NCBI GenBank assembly: GCA_009885695.1
Contig: VFKE01000056.1
Location: 42,603 to 106,602 of the forward strand
From: Verrucomicrobiota bacterium
GTDB taxonomy: Bacteria; Verrucomicrobiota; Verrucomicrobiia; Verrucomicrobiales; Verrucomicrobiaceae
DNA length: 64,000 bases
Direction of reading: 5' to 3'
Shown piece by piece: positions 14,913 through 64,000 of the stretch. The notes under the pieces are model-generated. The model saw only the letters and a program-made list of their open reading frames with translations, was not told the origin of the DNA and searched no databases. Both the position numbers and the translations under genes were made by a program. Position 1 is the first letter of the stretch. Each line of letters opens with the position of its first letter.

Positions 14913-14958
14913 TTCTCAGACCACGCGCGCCTTCTGTCGCAGAGCGACAATGGATGAT

Positions 14959-15112
14959 AGCCGTGGGTTTCAACCCACGGTTGACGTCCACAAGCGTATC
15001 CGTCGCGTAGCGACGACGGAACCGGGCTTTGCCAAGCTGTCTCATCGAGTTACATTGTCGCTACGAGACAAAATTAATTTGCGGCTACGACCGTGGGTTG
15101 AAACCCACGGCT
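14959..15112. repeat. 154-bp non-coding element with perfect 23-bp terminal inverted repeats
   Basis: AGCCGTGGGTTTCAACCCAC plus three bases at 14959-14981 is the exact reverse complement of 15090-15112; each end is itself a hairpin (CCGTGGGTT/AACCCACGG). The interior has a smaller palindrome around CGTCGCGTAGCGACGACGG and no gene. It fills most of the 328-base gap between the convergent U32 and histidine-kinase genes, which otherwise holds only the terminator at 15182-15215. Confidence 0.8.
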
Positions 15113-15181
15113 ACCGTCCGCCGTTGCTCTGCGACGTGAAGAAACAGCATTGGACACGCTATTTATTATCAGGTGTAAAAT

Positions 15182-31100: not shown

Positions 31101-33298
31101 CGACGGTCGCCAACACCGGAACGCTCTTCGCCACCAACCTGGCACCACAGGGATCCGCCATTTCCAAAGGATCGGGTTCCGCCAACATACGCTTGAATGC
31201 CGGCAAAACTCAGGCGGTTCTTCACTTCAACTACAGCGGATTGACCACGCCTAGGACGGGCTACCACGTCCATTGCGATGCTTTTAGCAACGGCTCTGAC
31301 ATCCATCCCGGCCAGATCGTATTCGACATTGATGACATCGATATATTCCACCCCGAATTGCGCACCGCTGACGGCGGCTACATCTGGGACATCACAGCTG
31401 TCGGCACCCTCTCCGCAGCCGATGTGGTGACCGCCATTGAAACCGGCAAGGTTTACATCAATATCCACAGCGTAAATTACCCGAGCGGCGAAATTCGCGG
31501 AAATTTCAGCCTCGTACAAGGATCTCAAAGTCCGCCGTCCCCGGTGACGGACCCCGGCTACATCGACGACCACGATACGGAGGCCGGCGCGGCGAGATTT
31601 CTCCTGCAGGCCACCTACGGCGTCGATCCCGTTGACCTCGCCAATGTGCGATCCATGGGCTATGCGGCATGGATCGACAGTCAGTTCGCCCTGTCACCCT
31701 CCCGCCTTGTGCCTGAAGTGCTGTCTAATTCCCCCGGTGGCGGCTATGGTGGCGGCTATCCGGACTACCATATGTGGAACGCCTGGTGGAAAACATCCAT
31801 CACGGCGCCGGACCAGCTCCGGCAGCGCGTCGCATTTGCGTTGAGCGAGATACTCGTCGTGTCCAACAACGCCCCCATGCCGCTCAACAACAACGGGCTC
31901 ATGCTGGCAGGCTACTATGACACACTTTTGGACCATAGTTTCACCAGTAATTTTAGTGACATCCTGAAGGCTGTAACCCTATCGCCCGCCATGGGCGTCT
32001 ACCTCGACATGCGGGGCAACCAAAAGGGCAGTCTTATCACAGGTCTGCATCCGAATGAAAACTATGCCCGCGAACTCATGCAGCTCTTTTCTATTGGGCT
32101 GAACCGCATGTGGCCGGATGGCACACTGATGCTGGACTCCATGGGCAATCTCATCCCCACATACACACAGACGGAGATCATCGGCATATCGCGTGTGTTT
32201 ACAGGGTGGAATTACGGTCAGGCCCTGCAAACAAATGGCCGCCTGCCCACCAATTTTTTCCCTCCCCCCAATTATCTTGATCCCATGGTCCTCGTGCCCA
32301 CCCGGCACGAGCTTGGGGAGAAGCGCGTATTGGACAACGTGGTCCTGCCACCGGCCAATGCTGCCGAGGCACCTGAATCGGTCGCCTTCAGCCCGATCAT
32401 AACACCCGCACCCAACTCGGAGGCTGACCCCAACTGGACCGCGTTCGACAACTACTGCTTGAACGATCTGGAGAAAGGCATCGACAGTATCATGAGCAAT
32501 CCCAACATCGGACCGTATATCTGCCGGCAGCTCATTCAACGTCTCGTGACCAGCCATCCGAGCAACGGCTACGTTGGCCGTGTCGTTCAGAAATTCAACG
32601 ACGACGGCACCGCCTCCCATGTCCGTGGCAACATGAAAGCCGTCATCAAGGCCATTCTCCTGGATGGCGAAGCACGCGACAGTGCGGCCGCGCAGAGTTC
32701 CACCGCCTTCGGCAAGCAGCGCGAGCCGCTGCTTCGTCTGACCGGGCTAGCCCGCACCTTTCCCGCAGCCACCGGAAACAGCACCTACAATGTCCGCAAG
32801 ACAGACGAACTCAGCCAAACCCCGCTAAACTCACCCACGGTCTTCAACTTCTTCTTCCCGGATTACAAATACCCCGGCACCCTCGGCAACGCCGGGCTCA
32901 CCACTCCCGAGTTCCAGCTCACCAACGATATCAGCATCGTGGACATGACAAACTCCATCGCCCGTTCCCTGATCGGCCCGTCCGGCAACAATACGAACAC
33001 CAGCGGATTGTGCAGCTTCCCGAACGGCGGAGGCGCAATCACGATGAACTTGGGACCTTATCAGACTCCCGCCTACACCAGCAATGCCGGCATTCCGTCG
33101 CTGGTGGACAAGCTGAGCAATCTTCTCCTGGGCGGCCCGATGAATGCAGACGCGCGCACCGTCATCATCAACTTCGTAGCCAACACCACCAACTTTCCCT
33201 ACACCACAGTGGCACCCACTGACACTGAGATGCGCGACCGGGTGCGGGCCGTTGTCCATCTCATCGTCACATCAGCTGGATACTCCATTCAGAAATAA
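28106..33298 (+). CDS. Giant secreted multidomain DUF1800 protein (TSP3, PA14, Ig-like, CHRD)
   Basis: About 1730 residues from the ATG at 28106, which gives a signal peptide (LFPCLLCIFSLACASASLAA). Order of parts: two Ca-binding thrombospondin-3-like loops (DDDGDGVSNAGELAAGTNP; DTDTDGDGLSDWAE), a Calx-like beta region, PA14 domains near 330-580, 580-728 and 830-990 (for example YDYFLDADDKARVFLN-like and YYFVARADDGVRLTVN), a cadherin/Ig-like domain near 735-825, a CHRD domain near 1005-1137 (HVHCDAFSNGSDIHPG ... YINIHSVNYPSGEIRGNF), then DUF1800 to the end (ARFLLQATYGVDPVDL, NENYARELMQLFSIGL). DUF1800 proteins pair with DUF1501 proteins; the partner starts 7 bases later. Probably carbohydrate-binding and surface-located. 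Confidence 0.92.
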   Translation: MRSPNNTCLLTRRHYLFPCLLCIFSLACASASLAAVDAAVSQTVWKMLYAVTDAQFNSAFWHTLDDDGDGVSNAGELAAGTNPFAANSTINVTSVNFDGTGTHLAFPTTNGKLYILQSTNTPAVASSWANLSPGVQVLGDGASKTLTAPPGGAAKFFRVMVEDTDTDGDGLSDWAEKTIGYNPESSASNGSANDYTIVAGVSGVLARENIVTIMADNTTATMPPDAMSPATDQASITITRSGVLHFNSITVPLVKSGTALEGSDYDNLPNSITFPPQVNSISLTVNPRANANMHTNITASVKAMPGGGYTVGGPDTASVVIYPAVIPNGTGLTAKYYVGANPTFNSPVNFGGNSVSYSYTKNTATTGTATITYFGTPGFSTSFPNNRVNLQFSSGSLIGGAYDKIYIIANTPLSTTFTVDITGANVPNSGLGNALLNPPVITRVDPQVDNSWSYGLPNGRQIASPDNFSVQWETYLSPATAGDYVFFLDADDKARVFLNRNDGNGSQQILENGWNSAATGGYNQSAALSLAVPAAPGDRYHIRIEFVDTTGAAKCKFHWKLNDGTNANISAFTNNTGTTSGWSANYYNNTTFTAPAAITNVEQYGPATIAQGDWGTGTPDVNLVYPDYFCVRWSGQVLPQFSEKYYFVARADDGVRLTVNNQLIVNRWANAGGGVVDTTGSIDLQAGVLYDIVMEYYEAVGDAQAQLHWYSQNQPKQLIPTNRLYPESTQTNAVVAAPTAVTSPLTAVALAGDSSPFTYIITASNGPDTTFTATGLPAWLTLNTTTGVITGSPSAAQAGHYQIVVTATNAAGTGSSVVNIDVIHAGSQITREIWTTGVSGSEIADIPVNTAPSSIDTDLSSLEDGTAYPDNTGERLRGYIIAPVTGNYYFWLAANNSAELWISNNAEPINKIRRAFVNGSAMLPKAWDDGSQSSRKSQWLALTAGQKYYYEILHNCPAGSAADHVAVGWLRDLTGTSAPIADGSAVVPGFVLAPYDYPATVANTGTLFATNLAPQGSAISKGSGSANIRLNAGKTQAVLHFNYSGLTTPRTGYHVHCDAFSNGSDIHPGQIVFDIDDIDIFHPELRTADGGYIWDITAVGTLSAADVVTAIETGKVYINIHSVNYPSGEIRGNFSLVQGSQSPPSPVTDPGYIDDHDTEAGAARFLLQATYGVDPVDLANVRSMGYAAWIDSQFALSPSRLVPEVLSNSPGGGYGGGYPDYHMWNAWWKTSITAPDQLRQRVAFALSEILVVSNNAPMPLNNNGLMLAGYYDTLLDHSFTSNFSDILKAVTLSPAMGVYLDMRGNQKGSLITGLHPNENYARELMQLFSIGLNRMWPDGTLMLDSMGNLIPTYTQTEIIGISRVFTGWNYGQALQTNGRLPTNFFPPPNYLDPMVLVPTRHELGEKRVLDNVVLPPANAAEAPESVAFSPIITPAPNSEADPNWTAFDNYCLNDLEKGIDSIMSNPNIGPYICRQLIQRLVTSHPSNGYVGRVVQKFNDDGTASHVRGNMKAVIKAILLDGEARDSAAAQSSTAFGKQREPLLRLTGLARTFPAATGNSTYNVRKTDELSQTPLNSPTVFNFFFPDYKYPGTLGNAGLTTPEFQLTNDISIVDMTNSIARSLIGPSGNNTNTSGLCSFPNGGGAITMNLGPYQTPAYTSNAGIPSLVDKLSNLLLGGPMNADARTVIINFVANTTNFPYTTVAPTDTEMRDRVRAVVHLIVTSAGYSIQK

Positions 33299-33305
33299 CC
33301 CCACC

Positions 33306-34877
33306 ATGGACACAAAACATGTTCCCAACGTCATCAGCCGTCGCAGTTTCCTGCGTCGGACAGCACCGATCATCGGTGCGGGTGCCCTGACCAGCACCAT
33401 CCGTGATCTGCGCCTCGTCAACGCGGCCATGGCGCAGGCACCCATCAGCGACTACAAAGCACTCGTCTGCATTTTCCTGGCTGGGGGTAATGACGCCAGC
33501 AATCTCATCATTCCGACGATTCCTTCTGAATATTCCAACTACGCTTCCATCCGAACCCCTGTGCTGGCCATACCCAATCAGGATGGCGGACCGGCCACGG
33601 CACTCGCGCTGAATCCTACCAACAGCGATGGGCACACCTACGGAATCCACCCCGCCTGTCCCGAATTACAGAGTCTCTTCAACAGTGGTAAACTCGCCAC
33701 CGTCTTTAACATAGGCACCTTGGTCTATCCGATGACCAAGTCCCAATACATCAGCAACTCCGTTCCCAAGCCACCACAACTTTTCTCCCACAGCGACCAG
33801 ACTACGCAGTGGCAGACCTCCATTCCTGATCAACCTCCAACCACCGGATGGGGGGGCCGCTGTGCTGATCTTCTCGACTCGCTCAATCCCAGAAGCGGCC
33901 CCGGTTCCTCCCAAGCTGCGCTATCCCTGGCCGTGTCACTCACGGGCGCAAACACCTTCGAAATCGGTGGCGTCTTCCAGCAATACGCCGTCGATGCCAA
34001 TGGCGGCGTCGCCTCCCTGAGTGCGCTCGGCCCCGCGGCCACCGCCCGGGATGCCGCCTTGAAAGCCGTGCTCGGCATCGACAAGGTGCAGGCCAACATG
34101 CTGGTCAGCAATTATGCACTCGCCCTTGATCACTCCATCGCCGCCGGCGCGGCACTCAGCACCGCGCTCAGCAACAGCCAGATGACGAGCTACTGGAGCA
34201 CCATCAGCAACTGGAGCGCCACTGGGGTGAATAATCAAACCGTCACGCCGAATGGCGGATCCACTACAACCTCCGCTTTGATGCCGCAACTACGCATGAT
34301 TGCCAAAATCATCGAAGCGGGCTACCGCAACGCAAGTGAAGACTACGGCCTCGGTATGAAACGGCAGATTTTCTTCTGCACGATCGGCGGTTTTGATACG
34401 CATGGGAATCAGACAACCGCTGCCGGTGGCTCTCCGAACAGCGCGAACGTCATCGTCGGTTCCCATGCCAACATCCTTGCGGAGCTAAGCCAGTGCATGA
34501 ACAAATTTCAGAACGCCATGGCGGCCATTGGCACGCACTACGGCGACGACGACTTTCAGAAGCGTGTCACGTGCTTCACGACGAGTGATTTCGGACGAAC
34601 GCTCCCATGCAACGGCCTTGGCAGTGACCACGGCTGGGGTGGCCATCATCTGGTCATGGGCGGTGCCGTCTTGGGCGGCAAGACATACGGCGTCTGGCCA
34701 ACTCTTGCCGTGGGAGGGCCGGATGACACCAGCACCGGCCGTTGGATACCCACGATGGCCGTTGATCAATACTCCGCCACGCTCGCCAAATGGTTCGGCC
34801 TGGACAGCAACGGCATCAGCACTGTCTTCCCCAATTTGAAACGATTCTCCTCACCCGATATCGGCTTCATGGGCTAG
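33306..34877 (+). CDS. DUF1501 protein with Tat signal
   Basis: About 523 residues from the ATG at 33306. The twin-arginine signal NVISRRSFLRRTAPIIGAGAL directs folded export. The DUF1501 (sulfatase-like alkaline phosphatase fold) core includes LVCIFLAGGNDASNLIIP, GFDTHGNQT, FTTSDFGRTL and SDHGWGGHHLVMGGAV, with the His/Asp residues typical of the family. Biochemical function is not established. It is directly downstream of the DUF1800 gene, the usual verrucomicrobial/planctomycetal arrangement. A 133-bp repeat follows the stop after five bases. Confidence 0.93.
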   Translation: MDTKHVPNVISRRSFLRRTAPIIGAGALTSTIRDLRLVNAAMAQAPISDYKALVCIFLAGGNDASNLIIPTIPSEYSNYASIRTPVLAIPNQDGGPATALALNPTNSDGHTYGIHPACPELQSLFNSGKLATVFNIGTLVYPMTKSQYISNSVPKPPQLFSHSDQTTQWQTSIPDQPPTTGWGGRCADLLDSLNPRSGPGSSQAALSLAVSLTGANTFEIGGVFQQYAVDANGGVASLSALGPAATARDAALKAVLGIDKVQANMLVSNYALALDHSIAAGAALSTALSNSQMTSYWSTISNWSATGVNNQTVTPNGGSTTTSALMPQLRMIAKIIEAGYRNASEDYGLGMKRQIFFCTIGGFDTHGNQTTAAGGSPNSANVIVGSHANILAELSQCMNKFQNAMAAIGTHYGDDDFQKRVTCFTTSDFGRTLPCNGLGSDHGWGGHHLVMGGAVLGGKTYGVWPTLAVGGPDDTSTGRWIPTMAVDQYSATLAKWFGLDSNGISTVFPNLKRFSSPDIGFMG

Positions 34878-34881
34878 GGCA

Positions 34882-35014
34882 GTTTAAATAATTTCGTAGC
34901 CGCGTTCGTATTGCGCAGCCGCGAAGCGAAAACGTGGAAAATATGCATACTTCGTTGGCTGCCGTGGCTTCTTCCCGCACTCTTGCGAGATGCGGCTATG
35001 TTTATTTTAAAAAT
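34882..35014. repeat. 133-bp dispersed element, copy 1
   Basis: Begins GTTTAAATAATTTCGTAGCC and ends GCGGCTATGTTTATTTTAAA; the ends are imperfect inverted repeats. The interior has CGCAGCCGCGAAGCGAAAAC and a TGCCGTGGCTTCTTCCCGCAC segment. Other copies are at 52494-52626 and 59845-60000. It is non-coding and fills the gap between the DUF1501 gene and the pseudopilin-like gene. Confidence 0.88.
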
Positions 35015-35037
35015 GGACTGACTGAGGGAGTCCGGCG

Positions 35038-42839: not shown

Positions 42840-42977
42840 TCTGCGAATTCGAGCGCGCCTGCTGACTTGCGCGAACTTATTCAATTCCGCCCGCATTGCA
42901 GGCTGAATCGCTGCACCGGCCTGCGTTTCATCTTGTCATGAAGTGCATCCTCGACTTTTGTGCCCGTCACTTTCTCC

Positions 42978-45900
42978 ATGAACAACGAGCGCCGCAAACA
43001 ATTCCCCTTCGATGAATTCGAGCCAAAATGGCAGCGGCTCTGGGAAGATGCCAAGGCTTTTCGCACACCCGGCCCGGGCGATGCCGATTTTGATTCCACC
43101 AAACCCAAATATTATGCGCTCGACATGTTCCCGTATCCTAGCGGGCAGGGGCTGCACGTGGGCCATCCGGAGGGCTACACAGCCACGGACATCGTCACGC
43201 GCTTCAAGAAGATGCGCGGTTTCAATGTGCTCCATCCCATGGGCTGGGACGCGTTTGGCCTGCCTGCGGAACAGTATGCCATCAAAACCGGCCAGCATCC
43301 GCGCACGACGACCGAGGCCAACATCGAAGGCTTCCGCGCGCAATTGAAGCGCCTCGGTTTCGCCTATGACTGGGAGCGCGAGGTGAACACGACCGACCCG
43401 GCTTATTACAAGTGGACGCAGTGGATTTTTCTCCAGCTCTATCATTCATACTTCGATGAGCAGACGAACCGGGCGCGACCGGTCAGCGAGCTTGAGGCTC
43501 AAGACTTGAAGCGTGAGGAAATTGATGCGCAACGTCTGGCCTACGTCAAAGAAGCTCCCGTGTGGTGGTGTCCCGAGCTCGGCACTGTGCTGGCGAATGA
43601 AGAGGTCGTCGATGGCAAGAGCGAAGTCGGCGGCTTTCCGGTTGAACGTCGCCCGATGCGCCAGTGGATGCTGCGCATCACCGCGTATGCCCAGCGTTTG
43701 ATTGATGAACTCGACGGCCTCAACTGGCCGGAAGGCATCAAGCTGCTTCAGAAAAACTGGATCGGAAAAAGCGAAGGCGCGGAAGTGCATTTCAAAGCGG
43801 CTGATCTCGATGAGACCATCACCGTCTTCACCACGCGACCGGACACGCTGTTTGGCGCGACCTACATGGTGCTGGCGCCAGAGCACCGGCTGGTGGATGA
43901 ACTTGTGAGCGAGGAACAGCTTGCGGAAGTTGAGCAGTATCGCGAACGCACCGCCCGCAAGAGTGATCTGGAACGAACAGAACTCGCGAAGGAAAAGAGC
44001 GGCGTCTTCACCGGCGCTTATGCCATCAATCCGGTGAACAAAGAGCGCATCCCGATCTGGATCGCCGATTACGTCCTCATGGGTTACGGCACCGGCGCCA
44101 TCATGGCTGTGCCAGCGCATGATGAGCGGGATTTTGAGTTTGCGAATAAGTTTGGGCTGCCGGTCCGGCAGGTGCTTCAAGGGAGCGCGGGCGTCTCGCC
44201 CGTGCAGACTCTTCAAAAAGGTGCCCAATTCACCAAACATCGCCGCCGCCTTCCGCACTGGCAGCAGGGTGAATGCGCAGTGTTCGTCACCTGGCGACTG
44301 GCAGACAGCCTCCCCAAGGAAAAACTCGATGAATGGAACTCAGAGCGCGAAGCCTGGAAAGCCAGCCATCCAGAGCCGTGGTCGGAACAATTTGAAGATG
44401 AGTATCACGCCCGCTTCAGCGACCAGCTGGACAAATGGCTCGATTCTGGAGGCGGCTCATGCGTGCTGAGAAGACCGGAGATTTCTGCGATTGTCGCCGG
44501 GGCGTTGAATCATTTTGATGGTGATCGCTGCACACTGCATGCAGCCGTCGTCATGCCGAATCACGTCCATTTGCTCTTTCAGCCTGTTGGCAATCACAAA
44601 ATCGAAGACATCATTCAAAGCTTGAAAAGTTTCACTGCGAAGCAGGTCAATAAACTTCTGGGATCCGAAGGCAGACTTTGGCAACCGGAGTATTTTGACC
44701 GTCTGGTCCGGAGTCTTCCGCACTTCGAGCGAGTCTCGCGATATATTTCTGAAAACCCGGTAGTGGCGGGTTTGCGTGAAGGTGAGTTTGTCTTGATCGA
44801 GAAATGCACGGGCGAGACGCCCGCGCTCCCTTATGAGAGTGACGGCGTTGCCGTGAACTCAGATTTCTTAAACGGTCTTGCTACGCCCGAAGCCAAGTCT
44901 AAAATCACCGCCTGGCTCACCGAAAAAGGCCTCGGCGCGAAAACAACGAACTTCAAACTCCGCGACTGGCTTTTCAGCCGTCAACGTTACTGGGGCGAGC
45001 CATTCCCCATCGTCTGGGAAGACGGTCATCATCGTGCAGTGCCGGAAAGCGAGCTTCCCGTCGTGCCACCGGACCTTGATGACTTCAAACCAACCGGCAC
45101 ACCTGAACCGCCGCTGAGCAAGGCAACGTCATGGGTGCGCTATTCTGAGAACGCAACTCGCGAACTGAACACGATGCCGCAGTGGGCGGGCTCATGCTGG
45201 TATTATCTGCGCTATTGCGATCCGAAGAATACGGAGCGTTTCATCTCAAAAGAAGCAGAAGCCTATTGGATGGGCGGAACAAATGTGAAATGCGGAATGC
45301 GGAATGCGGAATCAGTTTCAGCAATTCCAAATTCCAAATTCCAAATTCCAAATTCTACCAAGGGTGGCGTCGACCTCTACGTCGGCGGCACGGAACACGC
45401 CGTGCTGCATCTGCTATATGCGCGGTTCTGGCACAAGTTCTTGTTCGATCTCGGCCACGTCAGCACGCCAGAGCCTTTTCAACGCCTGGTGAACCAGGGT
45501 CTCATCCTCGGCGAAGACGGCCAGAAGATGTCAAAATCCCGCGGCAACGTGGTCAATCCTGACGATGTCATTCTCGAATACGGCGCGGACTCGCTCCGCC
45601 TCTATGAGATGTTCATGGGGCCGCTGGAGCAGGTGAAGCCCTGGCATATGCAAGGCGTGGAAGGCGTCTATCGCTTCCTCGCGCGCGTGTGGCGTCTCGT
45701 GCTGGAGGGCAATCAAGAGGGCGGCTGGAGCATCTCGCCGCAGCTTCAAGACGTGCTGACCGACAAAAAACTGAACAAGATCATCCACGAGACCATCAAG
45801 AAAGTCAGTGAGGACATCGAGAAGTTGAGCTTCAACACTTCCATCAGCCAGATGATGGTGCTGACCAATGCCTTCACCCAGGCCGAAGTGCGCCCCGCAA

Positions 45901-46250
45901 ATGGCGTGATGACGCTGCTGCAGACGCTCAATCCCTTCGCGCCGCATATCACCGAGGAACTCGCCGAGCGCATCGGCGGAGCCTTTCCAAAATTAAAGAT
46001 CAACGGCTCGCTCGCTCACCAAACGTGGCCGGAGTTCGACGCCTCCGCGCTCACCGAAGATGAAATGGAAATCGTGCTTCAGGTGAATGGCAAACTGCGT
46101 GACCGCCTCACCGTGGCCAAGGACATCGCAAAAGAGGAACTGGAAAAGCTGGCGCTGGCGAGCGCCAAGGTGATCGAATTCACCCAGGGTCTCACCATCC
46201 GCAAAGTGGTGGTGGTGCCGGGCAAGCTGGTCAACATTGTTGCGAACTAA
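42978..46250 (+). CDS. leuS: Leucyl-tRNA synthetase carrying an in-frame RAYT transposase and a second repeat insertion
   Basis: 1090 residues from the ATG at 42978 ([18 protein letters not shown]); an upstream GTG at 42960 adds six residues. Class I core: HIGH-type HVGHPEGY near residue 60 and [12 protein letters not shown] near 850. The CP1 editing domain shows the Thr-rich [13 protein letters not shown] and [18 protein letters not shown]. Right after [14 protein letters not shown] the frame enters a complete RAYT element (residues about 402-618), then resumes at [17 protein letters not shown] second insertion of about 25 residues (45287-45356) follows YWMGGTN. Without both, the protein would be about 845 residues, normal for LeuRS. 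No other leuS is in the window. Function despite the insertions is inferred from the intact frame and motifs. Confidence 0.93.
44181..44830 (+). mobile_element. RAYT (REP-associated tyrosine transposase) element inserted in frame in leuS
   Basis: 650 bp bounded by perfect 25-bp inverted repeats at 44181-44205 (GGGAGCGCGGGCGTCTCGCC then CGTGC) and 44806-44830. The encoded protein reads through both ends in the leuS frame. Transposase motifs: [20 protein letters not shown] at the start, the metal-binding MPNHVHLLF (His-x-His), [15 protein letters not shown], and [12 protein letters not shown], where the tyrosine is the candidate nucleophile, then [17 protein letters not shown]. This is the Y1/RAYT family, single-strand transposases that move REP/BIME palindromes. 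No clear target-site duplication is seen. Related end sequences lie at 16180-16336. Confidence 0.92.
45287..45356 (+). repeat. In-frame GCGGAAT / AATTCCA repeat insertion in leuS
   Basis: Three tandem GCGGAAT units (45292-45312), a short spacer, then about four AATTCCA units (45323-45355). Translated as [20 protein letters not shown] and a few more residues, between YWMGGTN and [16 protein letters not shown], which are adjacent in ordinary LeuRS. The same two repeat types flank the four-helix-bundle gene at 54229-54603, in the same relative orientation. Confidence 0.85.
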
Positions 46251-52270: not shown

Positions 52271-52740
52271 GATCCTTTGACACGAGAACGGCATTGGAAC
52301 CCTCGTCAGTAATCTGAATGGGTTCGTGAAATCAGATTGCCAAAAGGCTCCTCACGGAGATGTCTTCATCAACGTCCTCCACGCTCCGCTTGCCCTGACT
52401 TCCCCAAGAGTTATACGCACAGCGCCAAAAAATTACGGCAGGCGGAGCGCCCGCCCTACATCTCTCATTCAAATAGCGTCCATATCTAGAGCGGTTTAAA
52501 TAATTTCGTAGCCGCGTTCGTGTTGCGCAGCCGCGAAGCGAAAACGCGGGAAATATGTATGCTTCGTTGGCTGCCGTGGCTGCTTCCCGCACTTTTACGA
52601 GATGCGGCTACGTCTTTTTTTAAAAATCTCTAACTCAAAAGCGTGCTCATCATCGCGCAGGGCTTGCAGCGGCTTAAGACCATGCTCGTGGAGGAGCCGC
52701 CCCGCGACACACAAGCCGGAAGCATGTGCCGCATCACAAG
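52271..52740. other. 470-bp gap with palindrome and dispersed element, no gene seen
   Basis: Contains a GC-rich palindrome near 52440-52457 (GGCGGAGCGCCCGCC) and the second copy of the 133-bp element (52494-52626). The remaining sequence up to the DUF1501 stop shows no coding signal that I can support. Confidence 0.6.
52494..52626. repeat. 133-bp dispersed element, copy 2
   Basis: Nearly identical to copy 1 (34882-35014): the same GTTTAAATAATTTCGTAGCC start, the CGCAGCCGCGAAGCGAAAAC interior and a GCGGCTACG end with a T/A-rich terminus. Only scattered substitutions are seen between the two, suggesting recent spread. Confidence 0.88.
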
Positions 52741-59773: not shown

Positions 59774-59844
59774 TTGCTGGAGCACAGTCCCGCAGCGAGA
59801 CAGCCAGCCTGATTCATTTCAAAATGATGCTGGCAATTTGAGCG

Positions 59845-60000
59845 GTTTAAATAATTTCGTAACCGCGCTCGTAAGAACGCGGGAAATATGGAAGCTCTCC
59901 CCGCAGCCGCGAAGCAAAAACGCGGGCAGATTGGTAGCTTTGTAGCCATGCGATTTTGTCCCGCACTATCACGAGATGCGGCTACGCCATTCTTTTAAAT
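59845..60000. repeat. Dispersed TIR element, copy 3 (diverged, ~156 bp)
   Basis: Starts GTTTAAATAATTTCGTAACC and ends GCGGCTACGCCATTCTTTTA, keeping both ends of copies 1 and 2 but with a rearranged interior (a CGCAGCCGCGAAGCAAAAAC segment is displaced by an inserted stretch). The ends are imperfect inverted repeats. Confidence 0.8.
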
Positions 60001-60249
60001 GCTCCAGTTGAAGATCCCCTGCAACTTGGGCCGCAGCACGACGGCGCTGGCCTCCAGACTTCGTCCGTTGGCTCGCCTGGTGAACGGCTTGATTGCTCCG
60101 CGTAGCTTCTTCTTGTTCTTGCGTCGAATGAACCGGTAACCAAGCGTAGCGAGACAGACAGCCACTTTGTCCCAAACTGATGCCGGCAAATGACACACAC
60201 CTTGCGGTTCGCCTTCATTCTGTTCTTCCAAGTCTTTCCCGAGCATCAC
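59995..60249 (-). CDS. Possible 84-residue protein of unknown function
   Basis: The frame begins MMLGKDLEEQNEGEPQ and contains a basic segment (LATLGYRFIRRKNKKKLRG) before ending inside the third dispersed element. Two shorter frames overlap it on the same strand. I see no domain, and the end within repeat DNA argues for a remnant rather than an intact gene. Confidence 0.3.
   Translation of the reverse strand: MMLGKDLEEQNEGEPQGVCHLPASVWDKVAVCLATLGYRFIRRKNKKKLRGAIKPFTRRANGRSLEASAVVLRPKLQGIFNWSI

Positions 60250-62841: not shown

Positions 62842-64000
<1,159 letters not shown>

Follow-up and report, generated by a model that had tools for sequence, protein, structure and literature searches.

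Several families of small, high-copy bacterial repeats bear comparison with the element described here. RUP of Streptococcus pneumoniae is a MITE-like repeat of about 107 bp, present in about 110 copies per genome, with ends like those of the IS630-family element IS630-Spn1 and a tendency to be bunched with other repeats (PMC3049150). The target of IS630 elements is TA, which is duplicated on insertion, as in ISY100 (PMC2170065). Correia elements of Neisseria and ERIC are also small, high-copy intergenic elements with inverted ends, and QMITE2 of Coxiella burnetii is a MITE containing a GTAG palindrome, the truncated copies of which resemble REPs (PMC10969869). GTAG REPs are abundant in the verrucomicrobium Opitutus terrae (PMC3733652).

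The 64-kb stretch of DNA analysed here, which we call the window, holds three copies of an element that can be likened by description to RUP, as a small high-copy repeat with ends similar to those of an IS630-family insertion sequence, and on the same basis to Correia elements and ERIC. Unlike RUP, which belongs to an unrelated phylum, it comes in several size classes and has GTAG palindromes as its interior, and its genome yielded no partner insertion sequence. The GTAG palindrome within a MITE recalls QMITE2, again by description and in a different host. The element has the GTAG head, stem-loop and inverted dimers of GTAG-tagged REPs (PMC3733652), whereas its core lies nearly always inside IS630-type ends with TA flanks and no RAYT gene was found beside it. 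We are confident that the element is a non-coding MITE of the IS630/Tc1-mariner kind; the first-pass annotation had suggested a MITE from the three window copies, and this is borne out by the copy number, the inverted ends, the TA duplication at empty sites and an IS family of related genomes that shares those ends. It is a known sort of genome parasite, but the family itself seems new: no description of it was found among the papers listed by searches of the open-access literature. The phylum, for which these searches showed no high-copy IS630-type MITE family, thus gains one.

Extent and anatomy of the element

All three repeats in the window are real and non-coding and have their ends in common, as had been noticed earlier, although the termini sit 4-5 bp beyond the coordinates first assigned. 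The full element runs from the left end GAGCGGTTTAAATAATTTCGTAGCCGC to the right end GCGGCTACGTCTTTTTTAAAAATGCTC (in detail, GCGGCTACG(T)CTTTTTTAAAAATGCTC), usually with TA at either side, and measures roughly 125-215 bp with inverted ends. Copy 1, of the 116 class, occupies 34877-35018 on the plus strand; the TA on its left (34875-34876, target YTAR) falls within the TAG stop codon of an open reading frame at 33252-34877, its right flank is TG (35019-35020), and at its 3' terminus TGCTC has decayed to TGGAC. Its terminal inverted repeats lie at 34877-34905 (plus strand), extending into the first palindrome at its GTAG head, and at 34990-35018 (minus strand), the inner limit of each being approximate. 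Copy 2 (52489-52630, plus strand), also of the 116 class, is flanked by TA at 52487-52488 and 52631-52632, and copy 3 (59840-60004, plus strand), of the 139 class, by TT at 59838-59839 and CA at 60005-60006. Copies 1 and 2 had been called nearly identical, yet they agree at only 88% of positions end to end and at 90-91% across the best-matching stretch. Copy 3, earlier noted as rearranged inside, is a hybrid whose left half comes from one interior type and whose right half comes from a second, both of which occur elsewhere in the genome.

Two GTAG-tagged hairpins in inverted orientation make up the core of the element, and the consensus sequences of the classes fold along their whole length, whether taken as RNA or as DNA. 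The spacing between the end motifs falls into the classes 97/98, 115/116, 139-141, 152/153 and 165, and part of the length variation reflects the number of copies, from one to several, of the 12-bp unit CGTAGCCGCGTT. Correia elements also occur in size classes, and their target is TA. As a separate observation, many genomes of the family (L033, L038-L043, L048, L049 and L054; genus g8) contain the short motif GTTGCGAAGCCGCGAAGCGAAA, which resembles the middle of the 116 class.

Copy number and arrays

The source genome, a draft assembly of 3.47 Mb, comprises 216 contigs and is 92% complete. With up to three mismatches allowed, the 5' pattern GTTTAAATAATTTCGTARCCGCG matched it 145 times and the 3' pattern CCGCACTNTNNCGAGATGCGGCTA 198 times, while the reversed-pattern controls for both ends gave no match, which excludes chance for the element ends. 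The genome therefore contains further copies well beyond those of the window, roughly 150-200 in total. Our detailed sample of 1.32 Mb, made up of the window and 80 stretches picked for containing end matches, yielded 116 paired copies in discrete size classes. Some of these form head-to-tail arrays in which neighbours have one TA or TG/CA in common, with 27-29 bp between motifs. Such arrays could have arisen through insertion beside a copy already present, through unequal recombination or through both; some adjacent units are nearly identical, which suggests local duplication. Contigs often begin inside or beside copies (about 20 start within 300 bp of one), so that the element explains many of the draft's breaks and the assembly probably under-counts arrays.

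Insertion sites and target duplication

The flanks of the copies point to a preferred site. Before the element, C or T precedes the TA in 95% of cases, with T at 84% and A at 79%; after it, T stands at 75%, A at 73% and A or G follows at 93%. The pyrimidine before the left TA and the purine after the right TA give YTAR as the preferred site. TA is kept on both sides in only 39 of 99 copies, TG or CA being common. A target duplication longer than TA was considered and rejected, there being no signal past TA in the flanks.

When the joined flanks of filled sites were compared against all the sequence analysed, four filled sites were found to have paralogous empty counterparts with a single TA, indicating TA target duplication and answering the proposal that such duplications be looked for. 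Examples of empty sites, with the slash marking the join, are GCGCTGATTA/ATCGCAAG, GGGTTTA/GACAGGATT and TTTA/GAGTTTGAAC. Two of the four filled sites lie inside a dispersed repeat, GCGCTGATTAATCGCAAG, in opposite orientations, the third in another repeat, TTTAGACAGGATTAAC, and the fourth at TTTAGAGTTTGAAC. The dispersed repeat GGGAAGCGCTGATTAATCGCAAGTAGAAGCGACG is an insertion target for the element (L145, L130, L096, L140, L128 and others).

In the congener G001 the element is absent at all three orthologous sites that could be aligned, although the intergenic DNA there has diverged too far to show the exact junctions; conservation at orthologous sites in distant relatives had been named as the mark of an RNA or regulatory element, and absence from the congener speaks against one. 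The recent spread proposed earlier stands only in part. It agrees with the lack of copies at the congener sites, but the mean divergence of copies from the consensus is 8-9%, which makes it a weak claim, and the identity between window copies 1 and 2 is not that of a very recent burst.

A probable IS630-family partner in related genomes

When relatives were searched with one copy of the element, an identical outer end was found in G048, which belongs to another family. It lies next to an IS630-family transposase whose coding sequence is divided between two frames (L034; NF033545, 113 bits; PF13358, E 9e-29). The sequence beside this transposase, CTAGAGCGGTTTAAATAAAATCATAGCC, is identical to the left end of the element at 25 of 29 positions, whereas 20,000 shuffles reached a maximum of 18. 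A search of 96 genomes with the L034 protein gave relatives in 12, the closer of which have ends of the form TAGAGC..TTTAAATAAT..TAGCC. Complete IS630-family (NF033545) copies in related genomes are about 1.0 kb long with TA at both sides, and both ends, flanked by TA, are present at L174, L175, L177 and L189. Among those ends of L034 and these four loci that were measured, 19-25 of 29 bases are identical to the MITE ends, and for most of them the identity exceeds that of all shuffles. TAGAGC..TTT ends occur also in a more distant IS630 set in G003, at 37-38% identity, and G048 has its own short elements bearing IS630-type ends (L264). An exact IS630 end matched nine stretches in public genomes, all of them Verrucomicrobiaceae MAGs or Brevifollis gellanilyticus, which hints, short of proof, that the window comes from that family or its vicinity. 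The exact MITE pattern had no match in named public genomes.

The first-pass annotation had proposed looking for a longer, transposase-bearing relative with the same ends; such relatives could be recognised in the IS630 elements of about 1.0 kb in related genomes, but not in the source draft genome. At E ≤ 1e-15, no IS630 transposase of the L034 subgroup was found in the source draft or in G001. An autonomous copy in the source genome was sought among its nine DDE_3 loci, none of which was found with the element ends as its own, and by solo-end scans, and was rejected. L161 was likewise rejected as an autonomous partner, since the IS there probably ends before the MITE-like TTTACAAATGCTCTA. 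One element directly abuts an IS630-like gene fragment (L163).

Judging from these shared ends, mobilisation by an IS630-family enzyme in trans is most likely. An IS630-family DDE transposase made elsewhere would recognise the 27-29-nt ends, GAGC[G/A]NTTTAAATAAT..CGTAGCC, excise the element and insert it at a TA within the preferred YTAR, duplicating the TA; the interior consists of non-coding GTAG-tagged inverted palindromes, through which nearly the whole element can fold back. The trans-mobilising IS630 copy may since have been lost, or may be missing from the draft assembly.

Alternative origins and the question of a cellular role

The GTAG hairpins prompted us to consider whether a tyrosine (Y1) transposase of the RAYT type might instead have moved the element as a REP dimer (REPIN or BIME), the IS630-like ends being incidental. 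Its core indeed resembles REPs in its GTAG head and stem-loop, arranged in inverted orientation, and the source genome has 17 Y1_Tnp matches. Moreover, the interior hairpin GTAGCYGCGYTCGTAAGARCGYGG, searched with up to two mismatches, occurs 132 times in the source genome, 85 times in G012, 50 in G099, 47 in G002 and 22 in G048 (none in G003, G024 or G061, and reversed controls 0), and the copies read in G012 and G099 are without GAGC..TTTAAA ends. However, none of the 17 Y1 loci in the source genome is flanked by the element, the best of them (L061) having another palindrome, GTAGCCGTGGG..CCCACGG, on its flanks; 186 of the 187 sampled GTAGCCGC hairpins accompany the end motifs of the element, with one solo; and the clear TA duplication and outer inverted repeats suit a DDE transposase rather than a Y1 enzyme. 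With no RAYT adjoining the element, we rejected this origin, which we regard as very improbable. Since other genomes of the order, such as G012 and G099, contain hairpins similar to the core that lack IS630-type ends, the core itself may, to go by sequence comparison, have a separate past as a REP-like palindrome, for which a candidate transposase was not found. A composite, in which a GTAG-tagged REP dimer that spreads independently in G012 and G099 was captured between IS630 ends and could be a substrate of both RAYT and IS630 transposases, is conceivable though rather unlikely. As related genomes have the core both with and without IS630 ends, they offer a natural case for studying the capture of REP palindromes by DDE insertion sequences.

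The placement of the element raises the further alternative of a conserved RNA or regulatory element, such as a transcription terminator, selected at gene ends. Gene calls were simple, ORF-based and rough (90% called coding), so that the following figures of gene context are approximate: 96 of 100 copies are intergenic, 39 of the 81 with clear neighbours lie between convergent genes, an arrangement seen in 52 of the 342 other gaps (p 1.7e-9), and the elements avoid divergent gaps (p 0.017). This enrichment, the strong hairpin of the 98-class consensus (-62 kcal/mol) and the T run that follows the stem in one orientation would all suit a terminator, a role that had been suggested because the window copies seemed to lie close to gene ends, which is the case for copies 1 and 2 but only on the left side of copy 3. 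Nevertheless, orientation is even in tandem gene pairs (16:16) and 26:13 relative to the nearer gene in convergent gaps (p 0.053), none of the 22 consensus stem pairs has changes on both sides, Rfam gave no match, and the terminator scan, the loop limit of which would miss long hairpins, called none inside the window copies. Together with the absence from orthologous sites in G001, these results already contradict the RNA or regulatory reading as the main explanation, and we give it hardly any credence; the proximity to gene 3' ends is real, but the terminator role is not supported. Such placement most likely reflects tolerated insertions, harmful ones having been removed, rather than a positive role.

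Other repeats and Y1 insertions

Several further repeats came to light alongside the element. At 14936-15135 the window contains an inverted pair of the palindrome CCGTGGGTTTCAACCCACGG, which also flanks L061, the genome's best Y1 (RAYT) gene, so that the pair is probably a genuine REP dimer of the L061 RAYT. The leucyl-tRNA synthetase gene of the window (42960-46250, plus strand; an open frame of 1096 aa) carries an in-frame IS200-like (Y1/RAYT-type) transposase domain at aa 522-598, the insertion lying at about 44179-44832 and being bounded by perfect 28-nt inverted repeats. Two more Y1 domains, both in long open frames and both bounded by inverted repeats, are found in the source genome (L070 on C176 and L071 on C151); one host frame presumably resembles a type I restriction HsdR around the Y1 domain, and in the other we take the Y1 domain to be fused ahead of a NUDIX hydrolase-like sequence. 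At the window edge, 63676-63779 and 63896-63999 form a 104-nt inverted repeat, 79% complementary, with its arms 116 nt apart.
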